Origin: Camillea tinctor
Lineage: Eukaryota > Ascomycota > Sordariomycetes > Xylariales > Xylariaceae
Assembly (NCBI GenBank): GCA_022578605.1
Contig: MU394103.1
Span: forward strand, 124,001 to 188,000
Direction of reading: 5' to 3'
DNA length: 64,000 nucleotides
Shown here: one piece after another, positions 9,336 to 64,000 of the stretch
Position numbering within the stretch: the first letter of the stretch is position 1
How the letters are laid out: each line of letters opens with the position of its first letter
Notes under the pieces: model-generated
What the model was told of the DNA's origin: nothing
Database searches by the model: none
The model's input: only the letters and a program-made list of their open reading frames with translations
Position numbers and translations under genes: made by a program

Positions 9336-10153
9336 GATTGGATAAGATAAGCGCTATCTAGAAGAACCTCACGATGATTTTCGGAGGGTGGTTCTTACGG
9401 GCTTGCTTTCAGGATTAATAGTGCCCAAGATACCATGATCATACTCTTCAACAACCATAACCCTTGATGATACTGTCCCGAACCCGGGTGGCGAAATCGG
9501 GAAGTGCCGAGACTGGCTGAACTTCACGGGAGTGGGTACTCCAACGTCGCAAGGAGCGGAGTGGTTGTTCCTTAGGATGCATCCCTCCGGTTCTTCTGAT
9601 CGGGAACTAGATAGTATCTTGCAGAATACAATGTGGGAACCACAGAGTATCACACGACGGGGTGTCGCTATAGGAAGGAAATAAATCATAACTTAAAGTT
9701 GACGCCCTGGCTTCACGGTTAGGTATGTGCACTCCATGACTTCGATATATTAAAGCGAAATCTGTTGCTATACTGTGGTAATTCTCTTATATCCGTATAG
9801 TTGACGTTTGGAATATATTTAACCTAGGTTAATCACTGGAATTTATGAGTTATCATATTTTTATTCCTAATTAGTATGTAGAGCAACGCGATTGGCTGCA
9901 GTGCAGATATAGAAATGCCTTGGTTGATATCAGTGCCACTCAAGCTGTCAAGCCAAGTATATATATGCCCCCTAAAATTTGAGTGCATGTAACGATCCAG
10001 GCAGATTGTCTCACAATAGAAGCTGCATATTGAGAAATACGCAGGCAGCCTCGTCTTGTTACATTCCTAATGTATAGACACATTGCATAGCAGAGAAAAA
10101 AAGAAGTCAAGACGAAGTAATAAAAAATATTGGTTTCTAGTGATGAGATATTA
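9336..10153. other. Intergenic, upstream of aldolase gene
   Basis: This 818-bp stretch holds the aldolase promoter and, at its right end, the termination region of the tRNA gene. It becomes AT-rich from about 9780. I see no further gene. Confidence 0.5.
10122..10127 (-). terminator. Pol III terminator of tRNA-Arg
   Basis: A run of six T on the minus strand (AAAAAA on the plus strand) lies 27 bp past the tRNA 3' end. This is a standard RNA polymerase III stop signal. Confidence 0.7.
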
Positions 10154-10245
10154 TGATCAAGATGGGATTCGAACCCACAATCTTCTGATTATCTAAACCC
10201 TGTATGAGCTCGTAGTCAGACGCCTTGCCATTGGGCCACTCGACC
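10154..10245 (-). tRNA. tRNA-Arg(ACG) with intron
   Basis: The 92-bp gene folds into a complete cloverleaf of 72 nt after removing a 20-nt intron (10209-10190) just 3' of position 37. Acceptor stem GGTCGAG pairs with CTTGATC, with two G-U pairs and discriminator A. The D stem is GCC/GGC, the anticodon stem TCTGA/TCAGA, the loop CTACGAA with anticodon ACG, and the T stem GTGGG/CCCAT with loop TTCGAAT. The B box matches GGTTCGAATCC and the A box region TGGCCCAATGG. The intron sits at the canonical eukaryotic position. A T6 terminator follows. Confidence 0.93.
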
Positions 10246-10696
10246 ACTTACAAGATCTGAGTTGATCTATGCGCTCCAATGCTCTTGTTTCCAAGCATAT
10301 TTTCAAAGTCGTGTCTGAGTTCTATTTTTTTTTGGAATGATTAGGGCTTAAACGGCCGTGATAAAATATTTTTGAGTTAGTTTGTTCTGTCTCCTTGGAC
10401 CCATTTGGAACCAAGCGAGTGCTAACAAGGAACACAGGTTTGTCATCTCACTATGGGTATATATTAGTGGATGATACCCGCATATTAGAATATGTCCAAA
10501 GCTTAGGTAACGGGTATATAATTAATTATTTTTAGGGGCAACTATCTAGTTGCTAGGTTATTTACTTCACAGCACCCAAAGATGTAGGCAAAGATACGAT
10601 ATCTGTCGTTAAACTACAATATCATGTCGACCAATGTCCTTCAGTAATAACTCCAATAGACATATGATCGTCCAGAATCTTCTCAATTTTGGCTTC
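10246..10696. other. Intergenic, no gene seen
   Basis: This is 451 AT-rich bases between the tRNA 5' side and the 3' end of the next minus-strand gene. No coding frame or RNA structure is evident beyond the tRNA upstream region. Confidence 0.5.
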
Positions 10697-11718
10697 TTAT
10701 ATTATAATATGGCGTGGGTCGGCCCTTGGTAATTCAGTTAATAGTTCAGCCGGTGCTGAATTGCGACGAATAGGGTTACGCTTCGTTGGCTCCTTCTTGC
10801 TGACTGCTCGCCAAGACACGTATCCGTCTCTGCAGTGATCAAATTTGAGGCGGTCTTTGGCAGCGTAAAATTCCTTGAAAGATAGGGATACCTCTAAGCC
10901 CGGCTGCTCCAACTGCCTTGGTTTGATGGGATACCCTTCAACAATCAGTGGGCTTGAAAATAGTCGCTGCCAAGAGCCACTACCTTTGGGGTATTTTGGT
11001 CTAGTATCGGTCTTATTGTATGTTACGGAGATGTAAGCGGTGCGAGCCAGCTCTGGTAGTTGTTCCATTTCGCAAGTTTTAGAAGGGGTTTCTGGAACGG
11101 TCTTGTCGTGGAGTTCTGCCGAGTAATAGCATGGAAGGCCGCACGGGTCTGTTTGCATATCGTTACGAAGCGCCGTAGAAACCCATAAGAGTGGCTCAAC
11201 TACACCAACCAAGCCAGGTTTTTCCCCTGTCACCTCGAAAAAGGTAGTCCCGGGATAAATCTCGGCGGCAATTTTAGTTTTGCTAGTTTCGCTAGTTTCG
11301 CTCGATAGAACATCTTCACAAATTAGACCAGTAAATAGAAGAGCAAAAAAAGACAAAGCTTGGACTCACCCTCATATATAGCACCATACCCGTTATTGAG
11401 AAGGCACTTCAGTGATTTAAGAAAATCAACACCCGCATGCCCCCAAGTGCACTCCATGTATTCTGAGATATTGGTTGCTTCGACATATGTGTCGTCCCCA
11501 GAGATGGCCACAGTTTCAAAAAGAGATTCACTGTATTCCTGATCATATTGTTGTTTAGAGTAGGCAAAAACATCCCAGGCCAGCGTGAACTTTACAGTGT
11601 ACAAGGACGACAACTCTTTTGGGCTGGTTTTGCCATCCTGTAAGCTCTGTTTATTTCTCTCATCGATGTCTTCTAGAATTTCAAGGAACTGCTGGCGATG
11701 TTTTTTCATGCAAGCCAT
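10697..11718 (-). CDS. Uncharacterised fungal protein, partner gene of module 1
   Basis: Exons 11718-11370 and 11313-10697 encode 321 aa. I do not recognise a named domain. The C-terminal half has a segment (about 231-262) reading SWQRLF, IVEGYPIKPRQ and GLEVSLSF. I recall a similar 'GYPI...R...GLE' pattern from uncharacterised fungal proteins, but cannot verify it. The N-terminal third is charged and helical. The first 116 residues end at a clean GTGAGT donor, and the acceptor restores an Asp codon. The ATG was chosen within the ORF because the extension upstream starts at GTG. It is head-to-head with the small gene at 12811, as the CorA-like and kinase genes are with their small neighbours. 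Confidence 0.7.
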
Positions 11719-12810
11719 ATTGAGTGTATGAGTCACACTGGGCCGTTTTGTTGGATGCTCTGGTAACTAAGTATGTATGGGTCAGGAAATGCGTAGATGT
11801 AGATGGATGTACGAAAGACCGAAAGAAGTTGCGCCAAAAGGAGACAGTTGCAGTAGGTTATGTTCCAACCGATCTTCTCCAGGTTTGGGTAATGAGAGTG
11901 TATAAATCGGCGGGTAATTTTGTCTAATAAGGGTGTGTTCTTTATATAATGACTGCTTGGTTAGGTTTAGTTACTAATCAGATATTATATGTAAAAATAT
12001 GGAAGATACAGAGCACACACCTAGCCTATGTAAAATTTATTTAAGACATGTCCGAATCCTTTGTACTTGTTATTGTAGGATCCCAAAGACACGTGGACGT
12101 CTAATGCATTCCTTTCTAGAGCCACGTGGTTCGTGATTGCTTCTGATAACTTCGCGGACGCATGATGCTGGGCGATATTGCAAGGATAAGGATCATAACG
12201 AAACATTTCACAGTGCTCATGTTGTACGATTGATTTATGAAACATTCCAGTTGGATTTTGAGAACTGAGAAGTGAGACACAAACACAAGAGTTAGGCACC
12301 AGTAAAAATATAACCGATTTGTATCAGGGGAAGCGTGCTAGATCATGCCATACATAGCAAAGCTTTTTCTCACACATCGTCATAGGATGTGTGCATATAT
12401 AAAGCCTGCCTAGTCCGCCACCACATCGACACGGGAGGTAAGATGGCCTTCAAGTCTTTAATGGATAGGAAATTTCCATCCGAGTATAATAACTACTTCC
12501 ATGGACACCCGAATATCCCTAACTCCACATTCACTAGATTCTCTACTCAACAACACTAGCCAACAAGGCTTGAGTACATTACAGCGATATAATTGTATGT
12601 CCAAGAAAGTTGTGTCTCCCCTTCGTCGCCTTCCGGTCCTAATTATACAGAGAAACTTATCCTTAACTTTCACTTGTTAAACGCTAAATAATTTCCAATA
12701 AAACGAATGATTTGATTTATTATACCTTGCTAATATTTTGATATAGTGCATCTTTAATAGTCGTCGCCATAGAAACAACGAAAACGAGGGTGAAAAGGAC
12801 CAGGGAGACT
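11719..12810. promoter_or_regulatory. Divergent promoter region of module 1
   Basis: Start codons of the unknown gene (minus) and the small gene (plus) point away from each other across 1.09 kb. A short ORF on the minus strand inside this gap shows no family features. The region is AT-rich near the small-gene side. Confidence 0.45.
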
Positions 12811-13056
12811 ATGCCCGGAAGCACAAAAAAGATGGAAAAGGCAGAGAAACCAGCAACAGAAAAAGCCAAGCCGGATTTTATGCCTGAAACATATACCGGA
12901 CAGGTCATCACTAGAAGATATATTAATCCATCGAAGTTGGAAGATTTTCTTGAAGAACAATTCGGTGGGGAGTATCGCGTTACTTTGAGAAATAATGTTT
13001 TCACGGTATATGCAAGTCGATGTCTCACCGAAGAAGAGTTAAACAGCCTTGCTTAG
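12811..13056 (+). CDS. Small protein, family 'RRYINPSKLE', copy 1
   Basis: A single-exon gene of 81 aa, rich in Lys/Glu at the N terminus (MPGSTKKMEKAEKPATEKAK). It then carries the block GQVITRRYINPSKLE, a second block YRVTLRNNVFTVYAS and the end LTEEELNSLA. The same three blocks occur in the gene at 20896, with 15 identical residues in the first block, so the two are paralogues. The pattern suggests a compact beta-alpha-beta-beta-alpha domain, which is an inference. The function is unknown to me. The start was taken at ATG 12811 because the frame upstream opens at GTG. It is divergent from the unknown gene on its left and convergent with the CorA-like gene on its right. Confidence 0.82.
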   Translation: MPGSTKKMEKAEKPATEKAKPDFMPETYTGQVITRRYINPSKLEDFLEEQFGGEYRVTLRNNVFTVYASRCLTEEELNSLA

Positions 13057-13819
13057 TAACATCACCTGCGCTTATAAATATTAGATTATTCCATAAAGAG
13101 AAGGGCATGATAAAGCATACGGAGGATACGAGGTCATATTTTATTTCTCAGTTAATTCAACGGCCTACATACCTGGCCATGCAGCGCTAAGTCACACGGT
13201 CATATGGAATGTGACAGGCTAGTTCGGAGCCGAGGTACATATTCTCCACCCTTTGAATATATACTGGATCAATATCTTCAATGCCAATGTGTTAGTGCCA
13301 ACATAACAACTAATTAAAGTAAGCTCGTTGGTCTTATGAAAGAAGCTCGAATTAAAACTACCCGCGATGCCATTACTTAACCTCAAAATATTCTTTTTGT
13401 TCCATATGTTGTACTACCATATGATCCGAATCTTCTTCTAGGGATTTATAACGTAGACTGTGACCCATGACGCCAAATGACTATTTTTACTTACGCAAAC
13501 ATAACATCAGCTGAGCACTTACGGATTTACCAAACAAATCTTCACAACCGGTAGTAAAGCATATCATGAAACTTTACTCCTACTGTCTTAGCCAAACATA
13601 ATGGCTGGGCAATATAATTGAGACTAGATGGGTACCTAGGTACTTATCTAAAATTAGGACTACTGAGACCTGTCTCATGTAATAAGCTGGAGTACGTATA
13701 TATTAACGGTGCATTGAAGAGTAGGGAACTATGTCCCCTGATTCCAACACCCGATGCAACAGTTAAGCATACAGGCTCTTATTAAACCCTCGCCTTGGTC
13801 CAAAACATCAATTGTAGAT
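13057..13819. other. Convergent intergenic region, no gene seen
   Basis: This is 763 AT-rich bases between the 3' ends of the small gene copy 1 and the CorA-like gene. No supported ORF, RNA gene or repeat is seen. Confidence 0.5.
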
Positions 13820-15657
13820 TTATTCAGTTTCCTGCATTTCAGGATCTACCTTGCTGTTACCCCTTCTCTTACGCCGACTAAAGAAATACCACATAGCCAT
13901 CGTCAAGCTAGTGAGCATAACAGTACCAATTATATAAATCCAGATATAAGGAGACACTATCGCTTGACCTTGGGCTGGGTTCCATTCGAAGAACGTCATG
14001 GAAAAGAATGTCTGCAAGAATCACGTGGTGGTTGTTAGAGAAAGTAAAATATATTTGGAAACTTTCCAAAAGGATGCACCCATGCTTACCGCAACGAAGG
14101 TAGCCGGTAAAAAAATCATCGTAAGGAATGCAATAGATCGCATTCTTTCACCGTCTATTTTAGCCGCTTTTGCAATATCGAGGTTAGAGCTCGATATTGC
14201 CAAGTTCGTTTTCGTGTCTTCTCGGCCTATTTTATTCCACTCCTAAAGAGATCCAGTGGTCAGTCTCTGAGTATTAACAATCATGTATAGTATCTAGGTA
14301 GGTAGTTATCCCTACTTACCAACTGTGCTGCCAAAGCCATACCATCGATGATCGTCGCACAAGTCCTAATCTTGTCATCGTATTCCCCTCTCAACTCTAA
14401 GAGTCTCTGTCGGATCAGGGTTCCAGAGTCCTCTAAACCAGACAAAGTATCGGAAATGGCGTGAGCGGGATCTTCCTTATTAAATTCTATATCTACCCGT
14501 AGTTTTGTGTTGATCGGGGTTGATATATTGGAACCGTCGAAACCCTGATTTGAGATATGGAACTTAGCCTGTCTCAGCTCATCGCAGTGCGAGATCATTT
14601 TCTCTAGCTGTTCTTTCCAGTTTTGCAGACCGTTTTTCAACCAGCTTATTTTCAGCCATAACTTAATATAATGTTCTGAAGTCTCAGCTTCTTCGGACGA
14701 CTCGTCGGAAACAACGGCATCAGCATCGGCATCAGCAACACCCAGAACTTCCACACGATTGACCAACTCGCAAATTATTGGACTTAAGATGTCAAAATGT
14801 CGCTCACGTTCGATCTCAGCGAATATAGTTGGTAGTAATAAGGGATGGTAGGCAACGAAACTCCAGTTTGATAGTCGATCGATAAATTTATCGCGGGAAC
14901 TCTCATAACAGCCGTATAATACAGCCCGGGTGTCCTTTCTATAAGGACTATATGAAACAGAAAGAGCCAAGTCATTTGGCCATGCGGACGATGATTTACA
15001 GTTGTATACTTCCTCAAAGTAAGCGAGTGTTATGCTAATGAGTATAGACTATGCTTAAGCCTAACTTACCAAGAGTTGGGTGATTCGTATAGGGATCGTT
15101 CGTAGTCAATGCTGAGAAGGTTGCAGTAGTATTTCTGCTAATCACCCTAGAAATAGATCGATGAATTCCGAATGCTTCAACAACTCTTGGACATATATCT
15201 CTTGAAAATGGCAGATATGAGACTTCCGTGCCAGGAATCCGACGTCTGTTCCTGCCTCCGAACCTAGTACAGCATTAACACAACCATCTTAGAGGATTAT
15301 TTTTGTGACGACTGAACTTACAGCAAAGTAATCCCGCTTTGATGCCCGTCTAAGAAATCTGTTTGGTTCTTTTGTGAATATTTTAGTTACTATAACAACA
15401 ATATTGTTTTGATGAAGGATATACCTCGTCAAGCCATTCGTTCCAGTCTTGATCTGATACAAGATTCCTAGATATTGACGAAGCTATCTCCTAAACTCAG
15501 CTGTTAGTTATATGACGGTCCATCATGAGCACCAATCATTGGAGCAACTGACATCTGACCACTTCAGACCTCTGAAGACGCAACTTTCTTTCGGGATAAA
15601 CTTGAGAACATTCATGTCTTCCTGTCGAAGAAGTGATCCACGTTGCACCCACTCCAT
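13820..15657 (-). CDS. CorA-like integral membrane protein, partner gene of module 2
   Basis: A seven-exon model gives 481 aa: 15657-15553, 15490-15425, 15368-15322, 15263-15070, 15008-14320, 14242-14090, 14011-13820. All joins keep frame, although the first exon uses a weak GTCAGT donor. Recognisable segments include VSYLPFSRDICP and EAFGIHRS. HPLLLPTIFAEIER is followed by a long helical region and SIAFLTMIFLPATFVATFF (helix 1, about 403-427). IWIYIIGTVMLTSLTMAMW (helix 2, about 441-463) and a basic tail end the protein. This matches fungal CorA-like proteins. The canonical GMN ion-selectivity motif after helix 1 is absent (FFSMTFFEWN instead), so magnesium transport should not be assumed. 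It is head-to-head with the small gene at 16399. Confidence 0.85.
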
Positions 15658-16398
15658 AATCGTTATACCTTAACATTCCCTATTCAATTATACAATGAAA
15701 TGAATCGCCTTTGATATACTGTCATTCCAATCTTATCAATAGACAGGTGCCCGGGAATGTCCATATATATTACGAATGGAAGCAATGCAAGATCCCCGCA
15801 CCTTATAGGGATTGAGTGTCGCTAATAGGTTGCCACCGATTATGCCTGCATATTGCCTTATGGCTATGTACTATATCCACGATCTCTTACATAGAATCCA
15901 GAAAACGCCTTAGTGTCGGGAAAATAGTTTTGTTACATATGAATCTCATCGCTGCCTGAATTGAATCGACGTCCAATAATAAGTCCAAATGCAGCGAAGT
16001 ATGATAAGACTCCCAGAATGTCGTTATACTGCGACATATAGACCCAATCGCTAAGGCGTCTTCAGTCTTCCACGTAAACCGCCTACCGACACGCCTTATG
16101 CAGTATTACCCACCCTCATATCTCACGGCATAGGCGACTCTCGAACAGTCCACCAATCCTGATTTTCTTCTTATGCGCGAGGAATGTTCTAAGCCTTCAT
16201 GACCCCTCACAGCCTGCCTAAGCGGCTCTGCAATGAATCTTTACCCACACGAATGCAGGTCTTGAGTATATATACTTATTATAATCTGTAAGAACATTTT
16301 ACATTTTACAGACAAACGACTGCGCCACATGTTAGAAAACCTTATTGATACAAAAATACCAAAATTCATTTTTCAACGAAAGTAATTGACGACTCTAA
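15658..16398. promoter_or_regulatory. Divergent promoter region of module 2
   Basis: The CorA-like gene and small gene copy 2 start on opposite sides of this 741-bp gap. The stretch just before the small gene (about 16308-16335) contains a TTTTACAG sequence resembling the TTTACAGGTAAATGACC stretch before copy 3, possibly shared 5' UTR sequence. This similarity is weak. Confidence 0.4.
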
Positions 16399-16750
16399 AT
16401 GGCCAAGTTAATCCAACAATCTTTTCCGATGCGGTATACCGACGTCGATATCCTTGAGCACGAATTGAATAGGATTCTAGGTTCGAGTGATAGTTGGGGA
16501 CCAGTAGAGGTCCGTGTTGGCCCCCCTTTTCCTCAACGTTATATAACGCTGACCTTTCAAGGTGCTTGCAGAACGAATTGTGATTTCGGCGAAAAGAAAG
16601 CTCAATCAAGTAGGTCAATTATGTCAAATCATTGCAATAACCGTTGATATACACGAAGAGCTTCTAATTGTTACTTTGATGATGCAGAGGGAAATTGACC
16701 AGATCGCGCGAGCGATGAAGATCCATTATGAAGCAGGAAGGAGGAAATGA
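16399..16750 (+). CDS. Small protein, divergent member of the 'RRYINPSKLE' family, copy 2
   Basis: Two overlapping frames are best joined by removing a 52-bp intron (16510-16561, GTCCGT...CAAG with a CTGAC branch). This gives exons 16399-16509 and 16562-16750 and 99 aa. The spliced product then aligns with copies 1 and 3: RYTDVDILEHELNRIL matches RYINPSKLEQLLNRKF (RY....LE..LNR), and VEVLAERIVISAKRKL matches VTLRHDQFTIFASKLL. The unspliced frame loses the second half. A C-terminal helix (about 67-99, QREIDQIARAMKIHYEAGRRK) is an extension absent from the other two. Function unknown. It is divergent from the CorA-like gene and convergent with the kinase gene. The donor is non-consensus, so a frameshifted pseudogene is the alternative. 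Confidence 0.6.
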
Positions 16751-17068
16751 TAAAAGATGTGCCTAAGATTCTGGTTAGCCAACAGGTTGGAAGGACAAGG
16801 AATTAAATGTAGCGGTTCGAAGTTCTAGATATATTGACATGACGCCTTCGTCTTTCGCTCATATATTCCTATTGTTTTTATCCATATGTGCAACTAGTTT
16901 TAATATGGTTCTTTTTATTTACACTGGAAACGCTCAAAGCTCCACAATTTACTTCTTGCTACACCATTTTCTTAATATGTTCTTCGGATAGGTTTTGTGC
17001 TAAAGTCCATGAAATAGCTGCTCTTATATTTGATTAAATTTTTGACGCTAATGGCCTGGCTTCTCTTT
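16751..17068. other. Convergent intergenic region, no gene seen
   Basis: This is 318 bp of AT-rich DNA between the 3' ends of small gene copy 2 and the kinase gene. It presumably holds the two polyadenylation regions. Confidence 0.5.
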
Positions 17069-19282
17069 CTAACGCGGCCGAAGATGGTAACGTGATTCCC
17101 GACGAGGACGTTTTACCCCCGTCTGGTTATCATGCTGGATGTCACCACCATCAGCATGACTAGAAATGTCACGTTTGCGATCAACTCGTTTACCGGAATT
17201 CTCGTCTGATAGGCGAACGCTTTTGAGTGCTAAAGTAGCACCGGTTGAAGCAGTAATTAGGGATGCTCCTTTTTGGTTGACTAAAGAATTCGGTCCTGTC
17301 CTCGTGTCTTTGGTACGCTCTTCCACACCAGCACGTAGCACGTAATTTGGTTCTTTCTTGCACTTTGTGAACATCTTTTTCAGCTGCTCACTAACAGTCC
17401 TCGAGTTATCACGCTCGCTTATATCAACTACTAACATCTTGGTTTGGATGTAATTGAGGAAGTCTGATAAAAAGGGGCTGCATTCCTTTCGCCTCTTCAA
17501 TAACTTAATCCACTGCTTTAGAATTAGCTTGCGCTCCCCTAGAGCATGTATAAGAAATGGCTTACCTTATAAACGGACGGTTTGACTTCGGCGCACTTTC
17601 GCTCATCTCCCTGCACAAGCATATAAAAATCGTCCATTAAAAATTTCGAATTCCTTGACCCTTGCTCAACAAATCTGTTTCTATTAAAGGTGTCCAACCC
17701 TTCAACGCCGCAAAGAAGCCAAGTCACAAATTCGAGAAAAATGCAACCAAGTGACCATATATCGAATGGTCGAGAGAGGGTCTCATCAATTTCACGTTCA
17801 GGAGCAGAATACGTTGGGGTAACTCGAACATCGCTAGGGTTGACTTTAGTCGTCAAAGCTCTGTGGAAGGTTGTGAGGCCGAAATCTGAAAGTTTGAGGA
17901 TGCCAAGCTGGTACGAGTTTTTGTCTTTATTGAACCAAAGAACGTTTTGTGGTTTGATATCCCCATGTCTCCCATAATCTCTGCCGTCGTCTTCTTCCTG
18001 GTAGTTCCCAGGTGGGATTTCAGCATAGTCTTGGATGTGAGTAAATGAATCTTGTGAAAATTGAGTTTCGGCAACTTCTTCTACTGTCATCTTTGTGTTG
18101 TGAATGCCGTCTAATCCGTGAGCAAGTCCGCAGCATTGCTCAGCTAACCAAAGAATCCACCTGGAAGTGACAGTTGGGTGTGGGTAATGGATTCTCCACA
18201 GATCATCCAGATTTCCACCATCTGCCCATCTGAAAAGTAAGTGATATCTCTGTTGATGTTCAAATGTCGTTAGTAGGTCGACTTCTAGATGTCTCCTCGG
18301 TTTAACTTTTAATAACGCCTTCACTTCGAGACGAAACTCGCTGTCGCTACTCTGAGGTTCATACAGGGGTGCCTTGAGAGATTTGAGTGCAAACGATCGA
18401 TCTTCCTAGTAGCATGAGTTTGTACGGTTAATAAGGTCCCTAGAAGTTTTGTGGTAGATCTGCTTTATAACTTACCCCTTCATCAAAGCGATGATGAGCA
18501 TGATGTATCTTTACTCGGATAACTTCGGAATTCCCATCATAAGTTGGCTCATGATATATCCAAGGGAGAACAACTTTGCTCTCTAGCCGATGAACTGGAT
18601 GGTCTTTTAGGGATCGGGTCCCCTTGAGAAATACCGGAAGTTTTACACGCCATTGGTTAGTCCAGAATGCTAACCTCTGTACATAAGCCCAACGACTAAA
18701 AATTTCGATTATTAAATAACCGTTGCCGGCTTTTCGTGCCAAGAGACACTCGTCGTGTCCCTGGTCGATAGACTGAAGTGGTAGATCATTATCATCAATC
18801 CCTGCATTCATAATGTCCAAAATCAGACTCGGCTCCTTCATGATGAGCAATATTGCGAATATGCGGCGGGCTGTGCCTCGAGCATTCGGGCGATCTGACG
18901 GCCCGCAGACATAATCTCTGATATGTGAACTGTAATTGCGGAGATCTTCGTTCTTAGACTTTTTCAAATACTCTTCCACAGATTCAGCTTCCATGACCGT
19001 ACTGAATTTATCATCAGGCAAGAAAGGGGGGTTTCTGCCATAAGCGCATTTGTGTAAAGCGCTCTTCAATTGCAAGTCCAGAGGCAACTTAGATTGATTA
19101 GCAACTGTAATATGTCTCCCTGAGTGATCTTCTGGGCTATTGGTGAGCAAAGGTTGGCCGGCATGTGGCGTCCCTGACTCTGATATTTCGGTGGGTGTCT
19201 ATTAAAAAGCTAGCGTTAGTCGTAGAAATATGCTTATTGAAAGGAATTCACAAACCACGGCATATTCTGAAAGAGAGGACAT
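17069..19282 (-). CDS. Fungal protein kinase with long N-terminal region, partner gene of module 3
   Basis: Four exons (19282-19256, 19198-18476, 18405-17566, 17515-17069) give 678 aa. Residues 1-250 form a fungal-specific region with no domain I recognise (it includes LPWIYHEPTYDG). The kinase core follows: FALKSLK with ATP-binding Lys258, hinge FRWADGGNL, catalytic loop HGDIKPQN at 397-404 (Asp399), DFG at 424-426, TPTYSAPE and DIWSLGCIFLEF. An APE-type motif and the regulatory tryptophan region are intact, so it is probably active, most likely on Ser/Thr. The glycine loop is not obvious. The C terminus is basic (KRPRRESRYHLRPR), a possible nuclear signal. The first exon ends at an atypical GTTTGT donor. 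It is head-to-head with small gene copy 3. Confidence 0.87.
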
Positions 19283-20895
19283 GACGCTACGAATATGAGC
19301 AGCGTCTGTGATAATTTACTAATTCAAGAGCAACCATAAACAGTGGTACACCGAACTTGAATTTCAGGACTATTCAATAACCTATGAAGGACAGTCAATT
19401 TTGGATAACCACCCTCGTTGACTTGTGGGGTTGGATACATATCCCATTATATGACCGAATCCATAAAGCATGCGGCTGAGAGATAGTAAGAGTGAAAATC
19501 TCATTGATCGATAGACATAAGATGGCTAGGGTAAAATGGACACAAATCTTATGGGTGATGGAGGGGTGATCATGTCGAGCTCCTGCGGGTGCCGACTAGG
19601 GTCCTAAACAGAAGCGGAAGGAGTTTGTCAGTCCTACCTTTTTTCTATATATGTATCTCCATACCACGGGGATGAGGATTAGCCATGTATTGAAAAATGA
19701 AGGGCTCTTACCGCTTTTTAATATTCGGTGTTTGACACACCGACCGGCCACTAGACTATTCGATATAATCATAGGTATGTAGTACGACAAGCCATTTTCT
19801 TCACGTTAGTCCACTGTCTTTGAATATAACCTACATTAATCTTCAACTACACCTACAAAGACAAATATAATGCAATACCACCTCTAAGTATAAATGAAAC
19901 CAGAGATGTTCTCATGTTCATTTTACGATAAGTACCTTTTAAACCATGATTGAAAATGGTTGACATATATCGGGCTCATATCTATCTTGACAGCAAAAAC
20001 TACCTAGATCGCACAGCTAACTTCACTGGAAGGCTGAAAATTATACATATTACATTAAGCATGTCATTGTGTTTATTAAGGATAGTAACCGTTTAAAAGC
20101 CAATATAGGCATGGCGATATCGTGGGGTTCTAGTTGAGAAATATTCTCTCCCTTTTACTTTGAATTATTTTCTCAACTTTAGTATTTTTCCGTTATTGAC
20201 AGGGGCCATTCTTAACAAACACTGGGACTAAGCGGGAAGCAACGAGAGTGACGTTTATTGGTTCGAAAACCTCTAAGATTATGCAGCCATGTATGATATT
20301 TTCATGTAGGGGGCCATATGTAGCAATGTGGTTTTGCCAGACAGGTTTGGGGGCTGTGAGTCGGGACAAGAATGTCCACAAAACGTCTCGGACAATGCCG
20401 CATAAGGACCCACGTAAACCTATCCTACCCCTAATTATGTACCTAGGTATGTTGTACACTCTGTACTGCATATACTTGCAAAGCATACAAATATACTTGC
20501 TACCAAGCTGCCAAGGCCACAACAGACCATCGACGGTATGGTTTGGGGGCCAAATCCGTGAGTCCTAAACATGGGATGGGATTATCTGATGCAACCAATA
20601 TCTATACCCAGACAAGCTATGGCTGATCAATGTACAGCCCCCACTTCACACAGTTTTTCATTTGTCTGCCGTTTGCCTTGATCATAAATAATAAGAAGGA
20701 GGATTGCCCGCATTTCCCATCTCTGTAGACACTCAAGTTTACCCCAAAGTTCAATAATAGCTCAATCACAAGCAACCATCACGAAGCATTCACGATTGTA
20801 AATACTATACACACTTTACAGGTAAATGACCCTCACGGCTCCCAATTCCAGTTTACCCTGTTAATATTTTGGAAGTAGCCTTACAACACCAAACA
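19283..20895. promoter_or_regulatory. Divergent intergenic region of module 3
   Basis: This is 1.6 kb between the kinase start (minus) and small gene copy 3 (plus). Short open frames near 19596-19790 and 20193-20568 lack any family feature and overlap on both strands, so they are not called. The right end has a pyrimidine/CA-rich leader typical of fungal 5' UTRs. Confidence 0.4.
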
Positions 20896-21105
20896 ATGTC
20901 AAGAAGGGCAAAGGCAGTCTCAAAACGCAGTCCCACGCCAGAGGGACAAGTTATAACAAGAAGATACATAAACCCTTCGAAGCTAGAACAGCTTCTCAAC
21001 AGAAAGTTCCCCAAAGAGGACTATCAAGTCACCTTGCGTCACGACCAGTTCACAATATTTGCCAGCAAACTTCTTTCAGAGAGAGATATACGGAGTTGCG
21101 CCTGA
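20896..21105 (+). CDS. Small protein, family 'RRYINPSKLE', copy 3
   Basis: A single-exon gene of 69 aa. A basic start (MSRRAKAVSKRSP) is followed by GQVITRRYINPSKLE, LLNRKF, YQVTLRHDQFTIFAS and LLSERDIRSCA. The first block is identical to that of copy 1; the second is conserved in pattern, and the nucleotide sequences differ at synonymous sites. That indicates selection on the protein rather than a recent duplication (inference). The start is the ATG preceded by CAAACA; the open frame upstream lacks ATG. It sits head-to-head with the kinase gene. No enzymatic motif is visible; a protein-protein adaptor role is possible. Confidence 0.82.
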   Translation: MSRRAKAVSKRSPTPEGQVITRRYINPSKLEQLLNRKFPKEDYQVTLRHDQFTIFASKLLSERDIRSCA

Positions 21106-23717
21106 TTATTGACAAAGTTGCGCATGTACGGATGGATAATGAAAGGCAGGTCAATAGTGATAGATTTCATCACAACGGAAAGGATAGCCTCAGGTGTACG
21201 GAGAATTGGAGTTTGATTTTGGTTTATTGAAGGAAACTTTTGTTCATACGGTCACGACCGATATACCCAAACATGTCAGTTGACTACAATGAATATCTCG
21301 TTCGAGTTCTGTCGAGCGCCTCGGCATTGTGATATGGTCCGGATTTGAGCGCCTCAAAGAGTGCCTTATACCATAAAATCATATGTTAATATGGGGTTAA
21401 GCACGCTGTATTCTTGAACGGTCTACGGGTACTGTATAAAGCGGAGTGGGGAATACCTAGCAGGATGATGGAAGAGATAGGGAATTATGTATGTGCATAA
21501 CCATGGAATAAGCGTTACAATTCGCCAGGCGACTTTTGGGTGAATGCGGTAGAGATGACAGGGTGGGTTACAATGCCTCATCATTCGTATAATAGACCAA
21601 TGATCGTGTTTTGTAAGGCAGAATGATCCCACATCAGCCATTGTCCACATTCACGAGCCAATTGTGAAAGGGCATATGCAAGTATGTTGCATCCAAAAAT
21701 GATCTCTAATTCTCGTGGCGAAGATAGATCCCCGAAAGTCCGTCGGGCTAAATCTAATAAGCGTAGTATCATCTACGATGGAATCTTACAATCCATAATG
21801 GCTTTAGGTCCGAAATCCAGTATTCTAGAAACATAGAACTCAGGAATATTGCTGCGGCTCTACGTGTGACCTACATAGGACTTGATCTATGTATTTTATA
21901 CTTGACTTCAGTCATCACGTCGTTTATGACAAGGTAACATCTTGGGCAAAAGCATATGCCATACAGCACCATAATTCGCGCACCAGACCTTCGTAACCAT
22001 GACTAGCGATAGATGTTAGGGTCATTGGGGGCAACAGTATGACCTCTAGCTTACCCCAGCTGCATGTCTCGATTACAGTATTGGTTTAACAAGTATTTTG
22101 TTGCAGCAGCCCTTACATGTCACTTATATCTTGCCTTCTAGGTGGCGCTATTGAACACAAATGGATCTAGGCGTGGAATTTCAGAGAAGGTGACGAGCAA
22201 GCAGGCTAGAGCATTGGAAATGATACCCTACCAGAGCAGGCTACAGGGCAGTTACATCTACCCCAATCAGCACCGAAATACATCGATTGGTGATGTGAAG
22301 GAAGAGGAGGGTGTAATATTAAAAATGTGACAAGCATTAGTCTATACGCTTGGCCCCTTCATATCGTAGCCAATCAGTCCGTCAATGCTATAAACAGTCC
22401 TAATGTCGTAAGAGTGACAACAAGTGTTCTCGCCCCGACTGAAAACAGCCACCGTCTATTCGATGCAACTTCTCTAGCCTGTGACATTCCGATTCTTCAT
22501 AGCGGTAATACGACGATGTATCGACTACAAGCTATTCCGCCAATTAAGAGGTTGGGTACCTAGAATTGGGTAGGATTGTATAAAAGAAGAATATATCGTT
22601 ACCTAGGTAATCAGTGTGCGAAAGCCTGACTCTAGTTATTGATTGGGTCTGCTAACATCATCCTAGGCAGATATGTATAGAAGGAACACTTCGAGAAAAG
22701 TAGGCTTAGCAGCGTTAAGAGCTAGCTAGGTAAGTAAGCCTAAAGATTTATGAACGAGACATATACATGGCTTTTGATTCTTCTGTGAACCGCAGTGGCG
22801 GTAAGACAAAGCCTTTTGTGAGATCTCAGCCTGTTAACCGAGGCGTCGATGCTTTCTTCCCTCGAACATTCATTTTGCCGGCGGTACAGGCTGTCATGGG
22901 GACAAATGAGTCCATATGATTGCGATGATGACACGAGGTCGACTTGCATGTATACCGCAACTGAGACGTGCCACCACATACAAAGTGCCACATGTCTTTG
23001 ATTGTAGCCAAATACACTTATTAGTTGTTCAGTGCTGCGTTCCTTTATAGATATAAATATTCGACACCCCAGGTATACATCAGTTGAAGAGTCACCTTTA
23101 TCTATAACAAGTTGGGGTTCAATGGTGAGGACGTGATGATAAAAAGCTCAGTATAATCGAATTCCTCGGCTGCTTATGTACCCATCTGGGTACTCTAAGG
23201 GATCAAGCTATATGGTGAACAACAATTATATGTACTTCGCCACATAAATATATGATCCGTATTGATTCATCCAATCAATTTCTAGGAGAGAGGGTAATAT
23301 ATATGACTAGCTTCTTGAAAGTCTTGATAGGTGCATATTATTTGCTTGATGAATAGCGAGGAACGGGAGTGGCAGTGCATAGCATAGCACCCGGACGAAC
23401 TTAGCCTTGTACTGAGTTTTCTCATCTTACACAGGCTGACAGGTTACCAAAAATATAATAGAAACCCATATGATCTACGTGTACCTGATACATGATATAT
23501 TTATAGTTCTGGACTACATACAACCAATTTATGTCCTTATCAAGACAGTTTCGTATATCGAGCTTCTACATAAGCCTCCACACCGGGCAAAAGTGGGTTG
23601 CCCAACAGGGGGTCATATTCTTGAATCCCTTCTAGTTGAGTTAAATGTAATTCAGGGCCCTCCTCTTTACTTCTTTTATAGTTCTTTTTATGATTATAAC
23701 GAAACCCCTATGACCAG
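21106..23717. other. Gene-free stretch of 2.6 kb
   Basis: Only short frames occur, with no conserved motif, no splice-joined model and no tRNA. Base composition is unremarkable and AT-leaning. It may contain decayed sequence. The last ~120 bp are the promoter of the F-box gene that starts at 23718. Confidence 0.45.
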
Positions 23718-57849: not shown

Positions 57850-60800
57850 CCTCGCATGATAAATGCACAATATAAAAAAATATACAATTAAAGCTATATT
57901 TCTTTTTATTTATATGTAAAGTTGCAGTTAATTTAATAATACTTAACTATGTAAATAACTTTTAAAACTTTATTTAAAGATTTAGGTTATTTAAGCTTTA
58001 AAAAGCTTAGTAACTTAGTTAATATGTTTTAATATGTTAATTTTTAACTATTTATTTTTAATATTAATGGGTTTAAAAAGTAAAAGTAGTTTTTAAGCTA
58101 CGCAGTTTTATTGTTTTATTTTTATTATTTAAGATTTAATAACCGGTATAATAGTTAAAAATAAGCTATTACTTGTTTTATTATTTAAAAAAATTTTAAA
58201 ATAAAAGAAAATTAAAATAAATAAATAAAATTTTTAAATATAATAAATAAGTATAAAATTTTTAAAGTTTTTAACTATTTAAATAAATAAAGCATAATAA
58301 TTTATTTTAAAAAATTTAGTTATTTAAATTATAAATTACTTTTTAATAAATTAAAGTTTATAGCGTTAAACTTTTTTATAAAAATAGAAATTAAATTAAA
58401 AAAAATAAAAAAAACTTTAATTTTTTTTTTTTTAATTTTTATTATAAAACTTTATTGTCATACAAGAAATTAAGCTAAGTACAACCAATATATACTATAA
58501 AAATAGTAAAAAACAAAAATAAATGCTTGTTTTTTTTAATACTATAAAAAAATAAAAGCCTTTATATATAATAAATATAAGCCGTATTAAAAGTTAATTC
58601 TTTAATTAAATAGCTATTACTATAACAATTACACCTTTTTTTTAAAATAGTTATTTTAATCAATTAGTTTTATTTATAAAGCTAGCTTAATACATAAATA
58701 TATAATAAACCAAAAGTTTATTAGCGTTTCGCTAAAAATTTAACTTTTAATTAGCTTAAATATAAAGTTATTTCTTTAATTTAAATAAACAAAAAAGTTT
58801 TTTTTAATTTTTAATACTATTTATTTTTTTAAAAATCGTGTTTACATTTATTTTTTATACTTATAACATTTATAAATTATACTTTTTTCGTTTTTTTTTT
58901 CTTGTTATTTATTTATAATGCTTTTACGTCGTTAAACTACTAAAACGCGCAATTGCCGTTTTAATGCGCGTACTGCAAAGATTTAACTTAAAAATTTTCG
59001 TATATATTACAGTTATATTAACTACGCTAAAATTACATTTTACTTTAATATTAATAAACTAATTAAACTTGCTTATATTTATAAAAATTTAGCTTTATTT
59101 TTTTATAAAAATTACTTAAATAAATATAATTTATGCAAATTAATTAATAAAAATATGCTTATTATAAGCTATTTTTATTAATATTTTTAATATTGCTAAA
59201 TTTTAAATATAATTTACTATAATATTTACTACTTAATCTTTTTTTTACATTAGTTAACCAATACTTATTAAGTGCAAAAAGTTAACGCGCAAAAAAAAAA
59301 AATTAAAAATAAAAATAATAACCTTATTTAAATTATTTTACTAAATAATTAAAAAGCAATTACAAAAATTTAATTTTATTTTTTTTACGCTTTTTATTAT
59401 TTAATAAACACTTATCGTTTTACTTAAAATTTAATAAAAAAAAAAATATTATAATAAATAGCTTTAATAGTTTTAATTTTAATATTTTTTACATGCTTTT
59501 CGCTTTAATTATAACTAACTTTAGCAATTTTTTTAAACTACTTACATTGCTTATAATACAGCTTATAACATATGCAAGTTGCTTACTTTTTAATTTATTT
59601 AACTTTTTAAAGCTACTACTTTTATATTAACTTGTTATATTTATACTATAACAATAATACTTTAAAGCTAATTTAAAAATAAAAAGTTTATAACTTAAAG
59701 CGCTACTATTAAGTTTTTTAAACAAAAAATACGTTGTAAAATCCATGCTTATTAATTTAACGCTAAGTAAAATGCTATAAAAAATAAATTAAATAAAAAT
59801 ATTTTAAAGTTTATATAATTTTGCGCTTATAATTTAATAATATATTAAAATTTACATTATAACTTAATAGCAAAATATAAGTTTTTATTAAACTTAAAAA
59901 TTTAAATTTAATTTTTAATAGTATAATATTTTTATTAATTACTTTTACTTTATTTTATACTTATTTTAAAGCATTTTTTAATATAAGTTTTTTAAGTTAC
60001 ATAGTTATAAAAAAATAAAGTTTTACATTTATATTTATATTTTTTTATCTTTTTTTTTTTTTTTTATTATTTAACCTTTTTTTATATTTTTAAATTGCTT
60101 TTTAAACATTTGCTATATTTTCTTTATTAACTATTTAATTATATTTAAATAACTATCTTTTTTACTTTACTTTATAATATATAATACTTTAATATACCTT
60201 TTTGCTTACCACGTTTTTAACTTTTTATTTATTTTTATTTTTTAATTTTAACATAAATAAAAAGTTACTAATTTTAGCTTTTTAAAGTTTTAATAGTTAA
60301 ATAAAAAAAACATTATATAAACAATTATATTTTTTAAAAAAAGCTAACTAATACGCTTATAATTTAATAGTTTATATAATTTTAAATAAGCTAATATACT
60401 TTAAAGCTAACTTTTTATATTTAACTTACAAATTTTTAATAAATAACCTAACTATTTAACCTATTTTAAACAATATAACTTTATATTTATTATTATAATG
60501 TTTTTTATACTTTTTAATAGCAATTTACTATTATTTTTTTAATTTTTTGCATATTTTTTTAAATTTATTAATTTTTATATATACTACTAAAACTCCTTTT
60601 ACTATAAAGTTATTTTTAACAAATAATTAAAACTTTAATTTATATTTATACAATACTTTAAAAAGTAACTTTTTTATAATATTATTTATAATAAAGTTTA
60701 TTATAAAAAAAGCTTTAAATAGCAAGTTTAACTAAATTATTTATTTTTTTTTTAAAAAATACTTTAAATAACTTTTAATAATTTAATTTATTTATTTTGT

Positions 60801-63800
60801 TTAATTATTAATTTAAAAGTAAAACGCAATTAAAAGTTTTTTTTTAATTTTAATATAATAACATAATTTTCTTTAAAATTTACTAATAAATATTATTTCT
60901 TTATTTAAAACTATGCCTAATAAAGCTTTAAAATAACACTTAATTTTTTAATAAAATAGTTTAATTAATTTTAAACTTATAATAATTATAACTATTAAAA
61001 ATAAAAACGTTATTTTTATAAATTAATTCATTATTATTAATATTACGTTTACTTTTTAACCTTTATGCTAAATAAAAAAAAAACTTATAATAAAATCTAT
61101 AAATAACTTTTACATAAATTTTAAAAATATTAATAAAAAATTAAATTTACTATAAAAACAATAGTGTTTTACTTTAACTTTAAAACATATATTATAGTTT
61201 TTTATATAGTTTTTTATATCTTTTTTTAAATTAAGCTAATAAAATCAATTTTTTAATGCTATTTTAATTTATTTTATACTAAAATAACTTATTAATAAAT
61301 TATTATAATATAGTTTAATAAATTAAAAATAAATAGTTTTTTTATTAAAAATATATAATTAATTATTATATTATAAAAAAGTATTTAACTTAATAATTTA
61401 TTATAATTTCACTAGCATTTTATTAACTAATTATTTTTTAATCCTTTTATATTTAAAGTTACGTTATTATACTTTTTATATAAAATTAAGTAAACTTTAA
61501 AGTAGCTTTTTTTTTTAATTAACGCTTTAATTAACCATTTACGCCCTTTTGCGCATAACTACTTAAGCTAAAACTTAACGTTTTTTATTTAATTTATATT
61601 TATAAACAGCATTAATTAATATTTTAAAATTTAAGTTTATAACTAAAAATAACTTAATATTTACTACTAGCTTTTTTTTTAACGTAAACAATAATATTAA
61701 ATTATTAGCTTTTTTTACATATAATTAAAGCGTTTTAAAGCTAAATTAATTAAGTTTTATTTTTTTAATTAATATTTAATAATAAAATTAAAAAAAGCTA
61801 ATAATATATATTATTTTACTTATTTTCTATTTAGCTTAAAAGTAACTATAAAGCTATAAAAGTTTACATAATTTAATTTAACTTTAATAAAATGTTTACT
61901 ACTTTATAAATAATGCTATTAATACTTAAATAACTATACAATTATTAGTATTTTTTAATTAACTATCTTATAATTTAACTTTATTTTAATAAATTTTCTT
62001 AACTAAAACGCTATAAAATAATATTTACTTTTATTATTTTTTTATAATAATGTTTTAAATATAATATACTTTAAAACGTTAATTTTTATTAATATTTACT
62101 TTTTAAAATCAAAATGCATTAAAAAAAAGCCTTTTTAAATGCAACTTAAAGCTTTTTAAAAGCCTTTTTTACTAGCTTATTTAAAAAGTTTTTACTTAGT
62201 TTTTTCTTAAATCTACTTCTTTTAAATAGCATATTAATAAGGCAGCAATCCAAAAAAACTTTTTAATAAAACAGCAATAAAAGTTACAAAACTTAATAAA
62301 TTATTATACATTATAAATAAACTTTAATATAAACTATTTTATTATAGTTTTAATTTTATTAAAGTTTATAAAAATTTTTTCTTTAAAAATAACATATTTT
62401 AAAAACTTTATAAAAAATTAATAAAATTAACATTTAAACGATTTAATATATAAGTTAGCTTTTTATAATTTATTAATAACTTTTTAAAAGTGCTTTATAT
62501 ATATTTTCTTATTTTAAAAAAAAATTAATATATTATTTAAATATATTATATAAAATATATTAATAATATTATAAAATACTTTTTATATATAGCTTTAAAA
62601 AGTAATAAAAGCGTTAATAAAACTTATAAATATAATTAAAAACTTAAAATATTTATAACAAATACAAAATGCAATTTTTTATTTATTTTTTAACTTAATA
62701 CAAATTTAATAATAAGCATTTTTTAAGTTTATTTTAAAAAAAACTATAGCATTAAAAATCCTATTTAACAATTTAAAAATAAAAAAAAAAATATAACAAT
62801 TTTTAACCGTTATTTTATTAAAACTTTTATAATTAACATAAAGTTTTAATCTTTTGTTTTTTTTAAATATAAATAATATAAAAACACTAATTAAACTAAT
62901 AAATTTTTATATTTTCTTACTTACTTTTATTTTATTAATATACTTATAAAGCTTTTTTAATTTATTTTTTACTAAAAAATAAATAAAATAATAAAGCATT
63001 TTAGCGCCAAGCTATAAATAAATAGCATAATTAGTTTTTTTATAACTAAAAAAAATGTCAGCGTTATTTATATTAAAAAAAAAGCGCTTATTATAAAAAG
63101 TTTTAAATATTTCGTTAATAGTATTAAGATTTATAAATTATTCAAAATCGTTACTATTTTAATTTACTTTTTTAATAAAAAATTTAAAAAAAATATAACT
63201 ACATAATAATTAACTTAATTTTTATATACTTTAATAAACTTTTTAAAATTTAATAGTTTAAAAAATGTTAAAATTAACTTAAAAAACTATTAATTATTAA
63301 TAAAATTTAAAATAATACGTTGCTTTTTTAATATACTTTAAAATAAAAATAAAAAACTTCTTTTTATTTTAAAGTTTTTATTAATAGCAATATAAAAACA
63401 ATATAGTTGTTTTTTAATTTTTTAATAATTAATAATAAAAAAATTTACTTAATAAACTTTATAAATAAATATATTTAAAGCTTTTATAACTTTTAAAAAT
63501 ATTACTTTATAAAGTACTTAATTTAACTTATAAATAAAAGCAAAAATATAGCTAACTAAATTTACTACTATATAAATATTTAAATTAACGTAAGTAAAAA
63601 TAACAGCTTTTTATATAAATAAAAAAAAAAATAATATAAAAAGCTTAAAAAAAAATTAAAACCTTTATAAAAAAGGTTTTTTACAGCTTAAAATTAAAAA
63701 AAGCACTTAAGCCTTTAACTTGTTTCTTTAACTATTATTTAACTTTAAACATTTACAGCAAAAATAGTTAAATAAACTACATTTTTAATAAGATTTATTA

Positions 63801-64000
63801 TTTAACTTTTAATTAATTTTAAGTATATTTTTTTAAGCTTTACTTTATATAATATTAATATTACTTTTTTTTCTATAGCTTTTTCGGCCCCTATAGCTAC
63901 GTTTTCTTAAATATCTTTTTTTATAATAAATTTTTTTTTTTAACTTTATAATACAAGCTAATTTTAAAAACTAATAAGTTAATTTTATTTAAATTTTAAA
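57850..64000. repeat. AT-rich gene-free block, probably RIP-mutated repeats, open at right edge
   Basis: From about 57850 to the window end the sequence is almost wholly A and T. Long A/T runs, abundant TpA and only scattered GCs (mostly in AAAGC, TAGCT and ACG contexts) are seen. No coding frame is possible. In ascomycetes such isochores are formed by repeat-induced point mutation of transposons (C to T at CpA), which depletes CpA/TpG and enriches TpA. The sharp left border next to an LTR-like segment and tandem repeat fits this reading. No intact transposon protein can be read, and no telomere repeat is seen. Confidence 0.8.

Follow-up and report, generated by a model that had tools for sequence, protein, structure and literature searches.

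In the wood-dwelling fungus Camillea tinctor (Xylariales), genes for one family of small proteins lie beside unrelated large genes, usually in divergent orientation, and the arrangement may plausibly, if tentatively, be read as a recurrent fungal module in which the small protein is the regulatory subunit of its large partner, in a setting of nonself recognition or cell death. The arrangement is seen in a window of 64,000 nucleotides (contig C53, bases 124001–188000, in an assembly of 44.7 Mb and 154 contigs), where, between 10.7 and 21.1 kb, three minus-strand large genes and three plus-strand small genes alternate to form head-to-head pairs. The start codon of a GYPI-type gene at 11718 (−) faces that of small 1 at 12811 (+), with 1.09 kb between starts; the corresponding positions are 15657 (−) and 16399 (+) for a CorA-like gene and small 2, 0.74 kb apart, and 19282 (−) and 20896 (+) for a protein kinase gene and small 3, 1.61 kb apart. 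An earlier note on this DNA had given this order, orientation and set of gaps, and both the gene starts and a reading of the sequence bear it out. The features of the cluster are as follows, with the leave-one-out scores explained below.

10697..11718, minus strand: GYPI-type large gene; two exons and one intron with an ambiguous acceptor, about 304–307 amino acids in two open models; no Pfam match.
12811..13056, plus strand: small 1 (s1); 81 amino acids, intronless; leave-one-out score 58.6 bits.
13820..15657, minus strand: CorA-like gene; several exons joined by eye, C-terminal membrane part, no GMN motif.
16399..16750, plus strand: small 2 (s2); 75 amino acids, three-exon open model; leave-one-out score 23.2 bits, best decoy 8.7.
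17069..19282, minus strand: gene for a protein kinase that has an N-terminal region of its own; Pkinase score 61.8 bits against a cut-off of 31.7, with Lys, HGD and DFG present.
20896..21105, plus strand: small 3 (s3); 69 amino acids, intronless; leave-one-out score 66.3 bits.

The small-protein family

Judged by sequence comparison, small 1, small 2 and small 3 are one homologous family. Small 1 and small 3 match each other at an expect value (E) of 3.1e-13 with 55% identity in a sequence search. Small 2, which as a query in a plain search matches itself alone, had seemed different because its introns had been read through. A one-intron reading of this gene was ruled out since it does not keep the frame; the exons 16399–16515, 16562–16609 and 16688–16750 are open from ATG to stop, and the introns of this three-exon model fall at the same alignment positions and in the same phase as those of its paralogues.

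The family comprises at least ten members, the three in the window and seven more in the genome (one on contig C1, two on C24, one on C49, two on C75 and one on C137); ten is a lower bound because an exon-by-exon genome search misses short exons. The C24, C49, C75 and C137 members came from scanning loci fetched for their large genes. The C1 gene was a weak match (E 0.09) of the search with small 3; it has a standard intron, and after splicing its core aligns to small 3. Searches with other small members gave known loci only. A first intron is found at one alignment position, in phase 0, in eight of the ten members, and a second in six, the middle exon measuring 16 codons in five of them and 17 in the sixth. 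The intron common to those eight is missing from small 1 and small 3, which suggests that it was lost in the ancestor of this pair.

A leave-one-out profile test, in which the members competed with 24,156 decoys, translations of DNA from elsewhere in the genome, ranked every member first (10/10), the lowest member scoring 18.6 bits and the best decoy over all ten tests 9.3 bits. The splice sites of four members had been picked with the help of the profile and those of the other spliced members by eye against their relatives. One of the four profile-aided models, that of C49, is confirmed by public annotation, the spliced protein being identical in all 107 residues to a public Camillea tinctor hypothetical protein. 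A scan of the window returned the three members alone, with the next match at E 0.17, and the best non-member match across 19 sources scanned had E 0.11. The earlier claim of a single small-protein family is upheld by the match between small 1 and small 3 and by small 2, which joins them once correctly spliced; non-homology of the three by profile search, which would have refuted that claim, was not the outcome.

On C42 (L024 8520–8807, −) and C137 (L050 8753 onward, +) there is a hydrophobic segment starting QALDVLVLLFGFTILFSLLH. The small-gene core follows this segment on C137 but was not found on C42. Since a similar segment occurs there without the core, the N-terminus assigned to the C137 member is uncertain.

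The small genes of the two pairs compared by codon are under purifying selection. Over 49 codons, small 1 and small 3 differ at a proportion of 0.89 of synonymous and 0.26 of nonsynonymous sites; for the C1 and C24 members, compared over 44 codons, the synonymous divergence (dS) is 1.9 and the nonsynonymous divergence (dN) 0.23. With dN well below dS in both, these are constrained coding genes. A relative of the C49 protein in Biscogniauxia mediterranea has an overall identity of 71% and a core that is nearly the same. Protein database searches retrieved only one of the ten small proteins. In a Pfam scan of all ten up to E 10, small 1 alone matched the domain of unknown function DUF7578 (PF24466), over 23 positions; this likeness to DUF7578 is weak, being below the cut-off (12.6 bits against 27) and confined to one member of ten.

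Two AlphaFold models, built from four sequences each, concur on a predicted beta-alpha-beta-beta-alpha fold, with low confidence: the mean predicted local distance difference test (pLDDT) scores are 60.4 and 63.8 and the predicted template modelling (pTM) scores 0.36 and 0.43. Matches of the models in the PDB are at the level of the common ferredoxin-like arrangement. Strands are linked by a short hairpin in both of these low-confidence models, and the ten-row core alignment shows no long insertion at the hairpin site.

The large partners

The large partners look unrelated, as the earlier note had described them: a comparison of 20 exon pieces gave just two matches across classes, both weak and both of GYPI-type to kinase pieces, one with E 0.018 over 56 residues and the other with E 0.89 over 19. 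The Pkinase family was matched above its cut-off by all five catalytic exons scanned (C53, C24, two on C49, and C75), the C42 exon being left out of the Pfam scan. Lys, HGD and DFG are complete in five of six kinase exons, and the C42 copy reads DMG. Kinase catalytic exons are 27–37% identical among copies and CorA-like exons 25–35%. Neither of the two GYPI-type exons matched a Pfam family, and in the rest of the genome this gene has a single weak relative, on C22 (E 0.007).

The joined CorA-like protein of the window aligns with Pfam CorA (PF01544) through its C-terminal membrane part, at the end of the profile (E 8.1e-5, 22.5 bits, curated cut-off 27). The four other CorA-type genes are called CorA-like by their similarity to the window gene a Pfam scan of their exons minus the membrane parts having given no CorA match. 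A GMN motif is a feature of CorA Mg2+ transporters. It was not found in the five CorA-like regions read (C53, C24, C49, C137 and C75), where the letters FSMTFF (C53), FSMGIF (C24), FSTSLF (C49) and FAMPIF (C137) were read; Mg2+ transport is therefore not to be assumed. The window protein thus resembles the transporter family in its membrane part and differs from it in its score below the cut-off and in the missing GMN.

These features bear on an alternative in which the small proteins bind ligands and regulate a CorA-like transporter or channel as well as a signalling kinase, serving ion or metabolite homeostasis with no role in nonself recognition. The absence of GMN from all five regions speaks against it, as do the low confidence of the structure models and the sharing of one small family by unrelated large genes, and this alternative is rather unlikely.

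Recurrence of the pairings in the genome

The genome was searched with the CorA-like and kinase exons of the window and their C24 relatives, with E up to 0.01, so that the counts are lower bounds. CorA-like genes were found on C53, C24, C49, C75 and C137; the C137 match (E 0.0095) is supported by exon comparison (1.5e-6). Kinases were found by search on C53, C24, C49 and C42, and one on C75 and a second on C49 were read besides. All five CorA-like loci and four of the five kinase loci have a small gene no more than about 13 kb away. Beyond the window, a CorA-like gene and a small gene thus occur together at four loci (C24, C49, C75 and C137), and three of these also have a kinase of the same subfamily. 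The C24 locus has its genes in the order found in the window, CorA(−)/small(+)/kinase(−)/small(+); C75 reads small(+)/kinase(+)/small(−)/CorA(+) and C49 small(−)/kinase(+)/kinase(+)/CorA(+), and on C137 a CorA-like gene (+) is followed about 3 kb downstream by a small gene (+). Of the ten small genes, seven form a divergent pair with a kinase, CorA-like or GYPI-type gene.

The linkage persists between divergent copies at loci whose flanks differ by eye, which points, on sequence comparison, to functional coupling of the small and large genes. The alternative is that kinase, CorA-like and small genes form an old cluster, duplicated jointly and still linked, with the small proteins acting elsewhere and no physical coupling to their neighbours. 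Gene order common to different loci would fit such a history, as would the constraint on the C1 small gene, which is without such a partner, and a tree that does not resolve by partner (see below); linkage at several loci despite the low identities among kinase and CorA-like copies argues against it, as do the differing flanking genes. This alternative is unlikely.

Very AT-rich blocks (10–18% guanine plus cytosine, GC) lie beside the C137 CorA-like locus (L050 1–4000) and the C42 kinase locus (L024 1–4000), and another is near the window cluster, at window positions 58001–64000. The cluster itself (window 10001–22000) has 40–42% GC and the 10 kb to its left a higher 46–50%. A transfer RNA gene with an unclear anticodon is predicted by ARAGORN at window positions 10153–10246 (−), just past the 3' end of the GYPI-type gene. 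Selfish or killer-type toxin-antidote pairs, with the small protein as toxin or antidote, would also place a small gene next to a large one in a multicopy, dispersed cluster, and the C137 and C42 copies do adjoin AT-rich blocks; the core of the C49 member, however, is nearly identical in Biscogniauxia, unlike that of a fast-changing selfish pair, and no toxin domain was found in the pieces scanned. Such a system is very improbable here.

Evidence on partner specificity and points against the module

A test of whether the small proteins track their partner type used the eight members with a kinase or CorA-like neighbour, leaving out small 1 (GYPI-type neighbour) and the C1 member. In mean similarity within minus between partner types, the true split ranked highest of the 35 distinct 4:4 splits, or 2/70 over labelled splits, with its mirror included. 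A clade of CorA-type members was not rejected by the approximately unbiased test (p-AU 0.287).

Several observations weigh against the coupling of small and large genes, or against the setting proposed for it. The maximum-likelihood tree of the small proteins is unresolved and shows no grouping by partner, the kinase label requiring three changes and the CorA label two, and a sorting of the small proteins by partner type is, on these sequence comparisons, weakly supported at best. Three of the ten small genes lack such a divergent partner: on C75 one runs in tandem with the kinase, on C137 the small gene shares its strand with the CorA-like gene, and the C1 gene stands head to head with an apparent incomplete P450 gene (by eye; L008 1714–3700). 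C1 is the sole extra locus met by the small-gene search alone, and the CorA and kinase searches gave no match there. At the C42 kinase locus no small gene was detected in 39001–60000, and at C49, with two kinases and a CorA-like gene, a further small gene was not found. The GYPI pairing was seen once; at the GYPI-type locus on C22, over the 10 kb covered, a small gene was not detected. No Pfam CorA match came from the other four CorA-type exons, whose membrane parts the scan did not include, and the partner pieces scanned by Pfam, which do not include every exon, gave no HET, NACHT/NB-ARC, HeLo or gasdermin match. Finally, the C24, C49, C75 and C137 stretches were chosen for their CorA-like or kinase genes; the divergent fraction is a biased estimate because loci were partly chosen via large genes. 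This bias leaves unexplained why CorA-like loci carry small genes at all.

Two claims of the earlier note thus stand in part. The pairing of a small family with different large genes holds in so far as small, CorA-like and kinase genes recur together at other loci of the same genome, whereas a strict rule of divergent pairs is not supported. A lack of any preference for these neighbours, which would have told against the note, was not the result in this one genome, though the C1 member has no such neighbour. The adaptor or sensor role and the part in defence or cell death that the note considered are conjectural.

Comparison with known fungal systems

Among the systems described in the available portions of the literature, het-B of Podospora anserina is the nearest to the Camillea module. 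There, a small PII-like protein, Bp, encoded beside Bh (a HET and lectin fold protein), determines incompatibility; the small proteins in that system have 115–132 residues, and PII-like genes also adjoin several HET lineages and one NLR gene (partial text of PMC10890737). Both systems place a small-protein gene beside a large variable gene, with one small family next to different large neighbours. They differ in that the Camillea partners are a kinase, a CorA-like protein and a GYPI-type protein, whose scanned pieces show no HET match.

The T-loop of PII-like proteins lies between strands 2 and 3. This loop is long according to PMC10890737, whereas the Camillea family has a short strand-strand hairpin in its low-confidence models. 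No PII family was listed for the ten members in the Pfam scan, in which HMMER filters drop most weak matches. By these two features, the Pfam match and the predicted loop, the Camillea small family is not PII-like, and the module resembles het-B without belonging to it.

A further point of comparison is offered by the micro-clusters of fungal cell death, for instance het-S/nwd2 and the gasdermin/protease pairs (excerpts of PMC12881547 and PMC10197012). The likeness, as far as these excerpts go, is in two or three linked genes acting as a functional unit; the Camillea pieces scanned differ in having no NLR, HeLo, gasdermin or protease match and in the recurrence of one small family with unrelated large genes. 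In the accessible sections, described allorecognition and cell-death systems couple one controller to one effector (PMC10890737, PMC12881547, PMC10197012). The Camillea combination is unmentioned in the sections available of the reviews PMC12881547 and PMC10197012, of a survey of NLRs in Sordariales (PMC12258605) and of work on lineage-specific genes in the vicinity of HET genes (PMC10684091).

Proposed mechanism and implications

The recurring kinase and membrane-protein pairings suggest a reusable control module. In the regulatory-subunit interpretation, each small protein would act on its neighbour as a sensor or brake, keeping the partner off or switching it on; the kinase would pass a signal and the CorA-like protein would act at a membrane. 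The most likely setting, by analogy with two-gene systems of fungi, would be nonself recognition or regulated cell death. A more specific version is doubtful: a class of immune or nonself modules in which tiny beta-alpha-beta-beta-alpha proteins are the dedicated sensor or brake for unrelated effectors, the kinase-small and CorA-small pairs being wired in series, with the kinase signalling and the CorA-like protein executing, and kept as a dispersed, duplicating cluster.

The small genes are easily missed, and the diagnostic intron pattern of their family offers a way to find more members. If one small family does serve beside unrelated large genes, it would show how allorecognition and cell-death systems swap parts.
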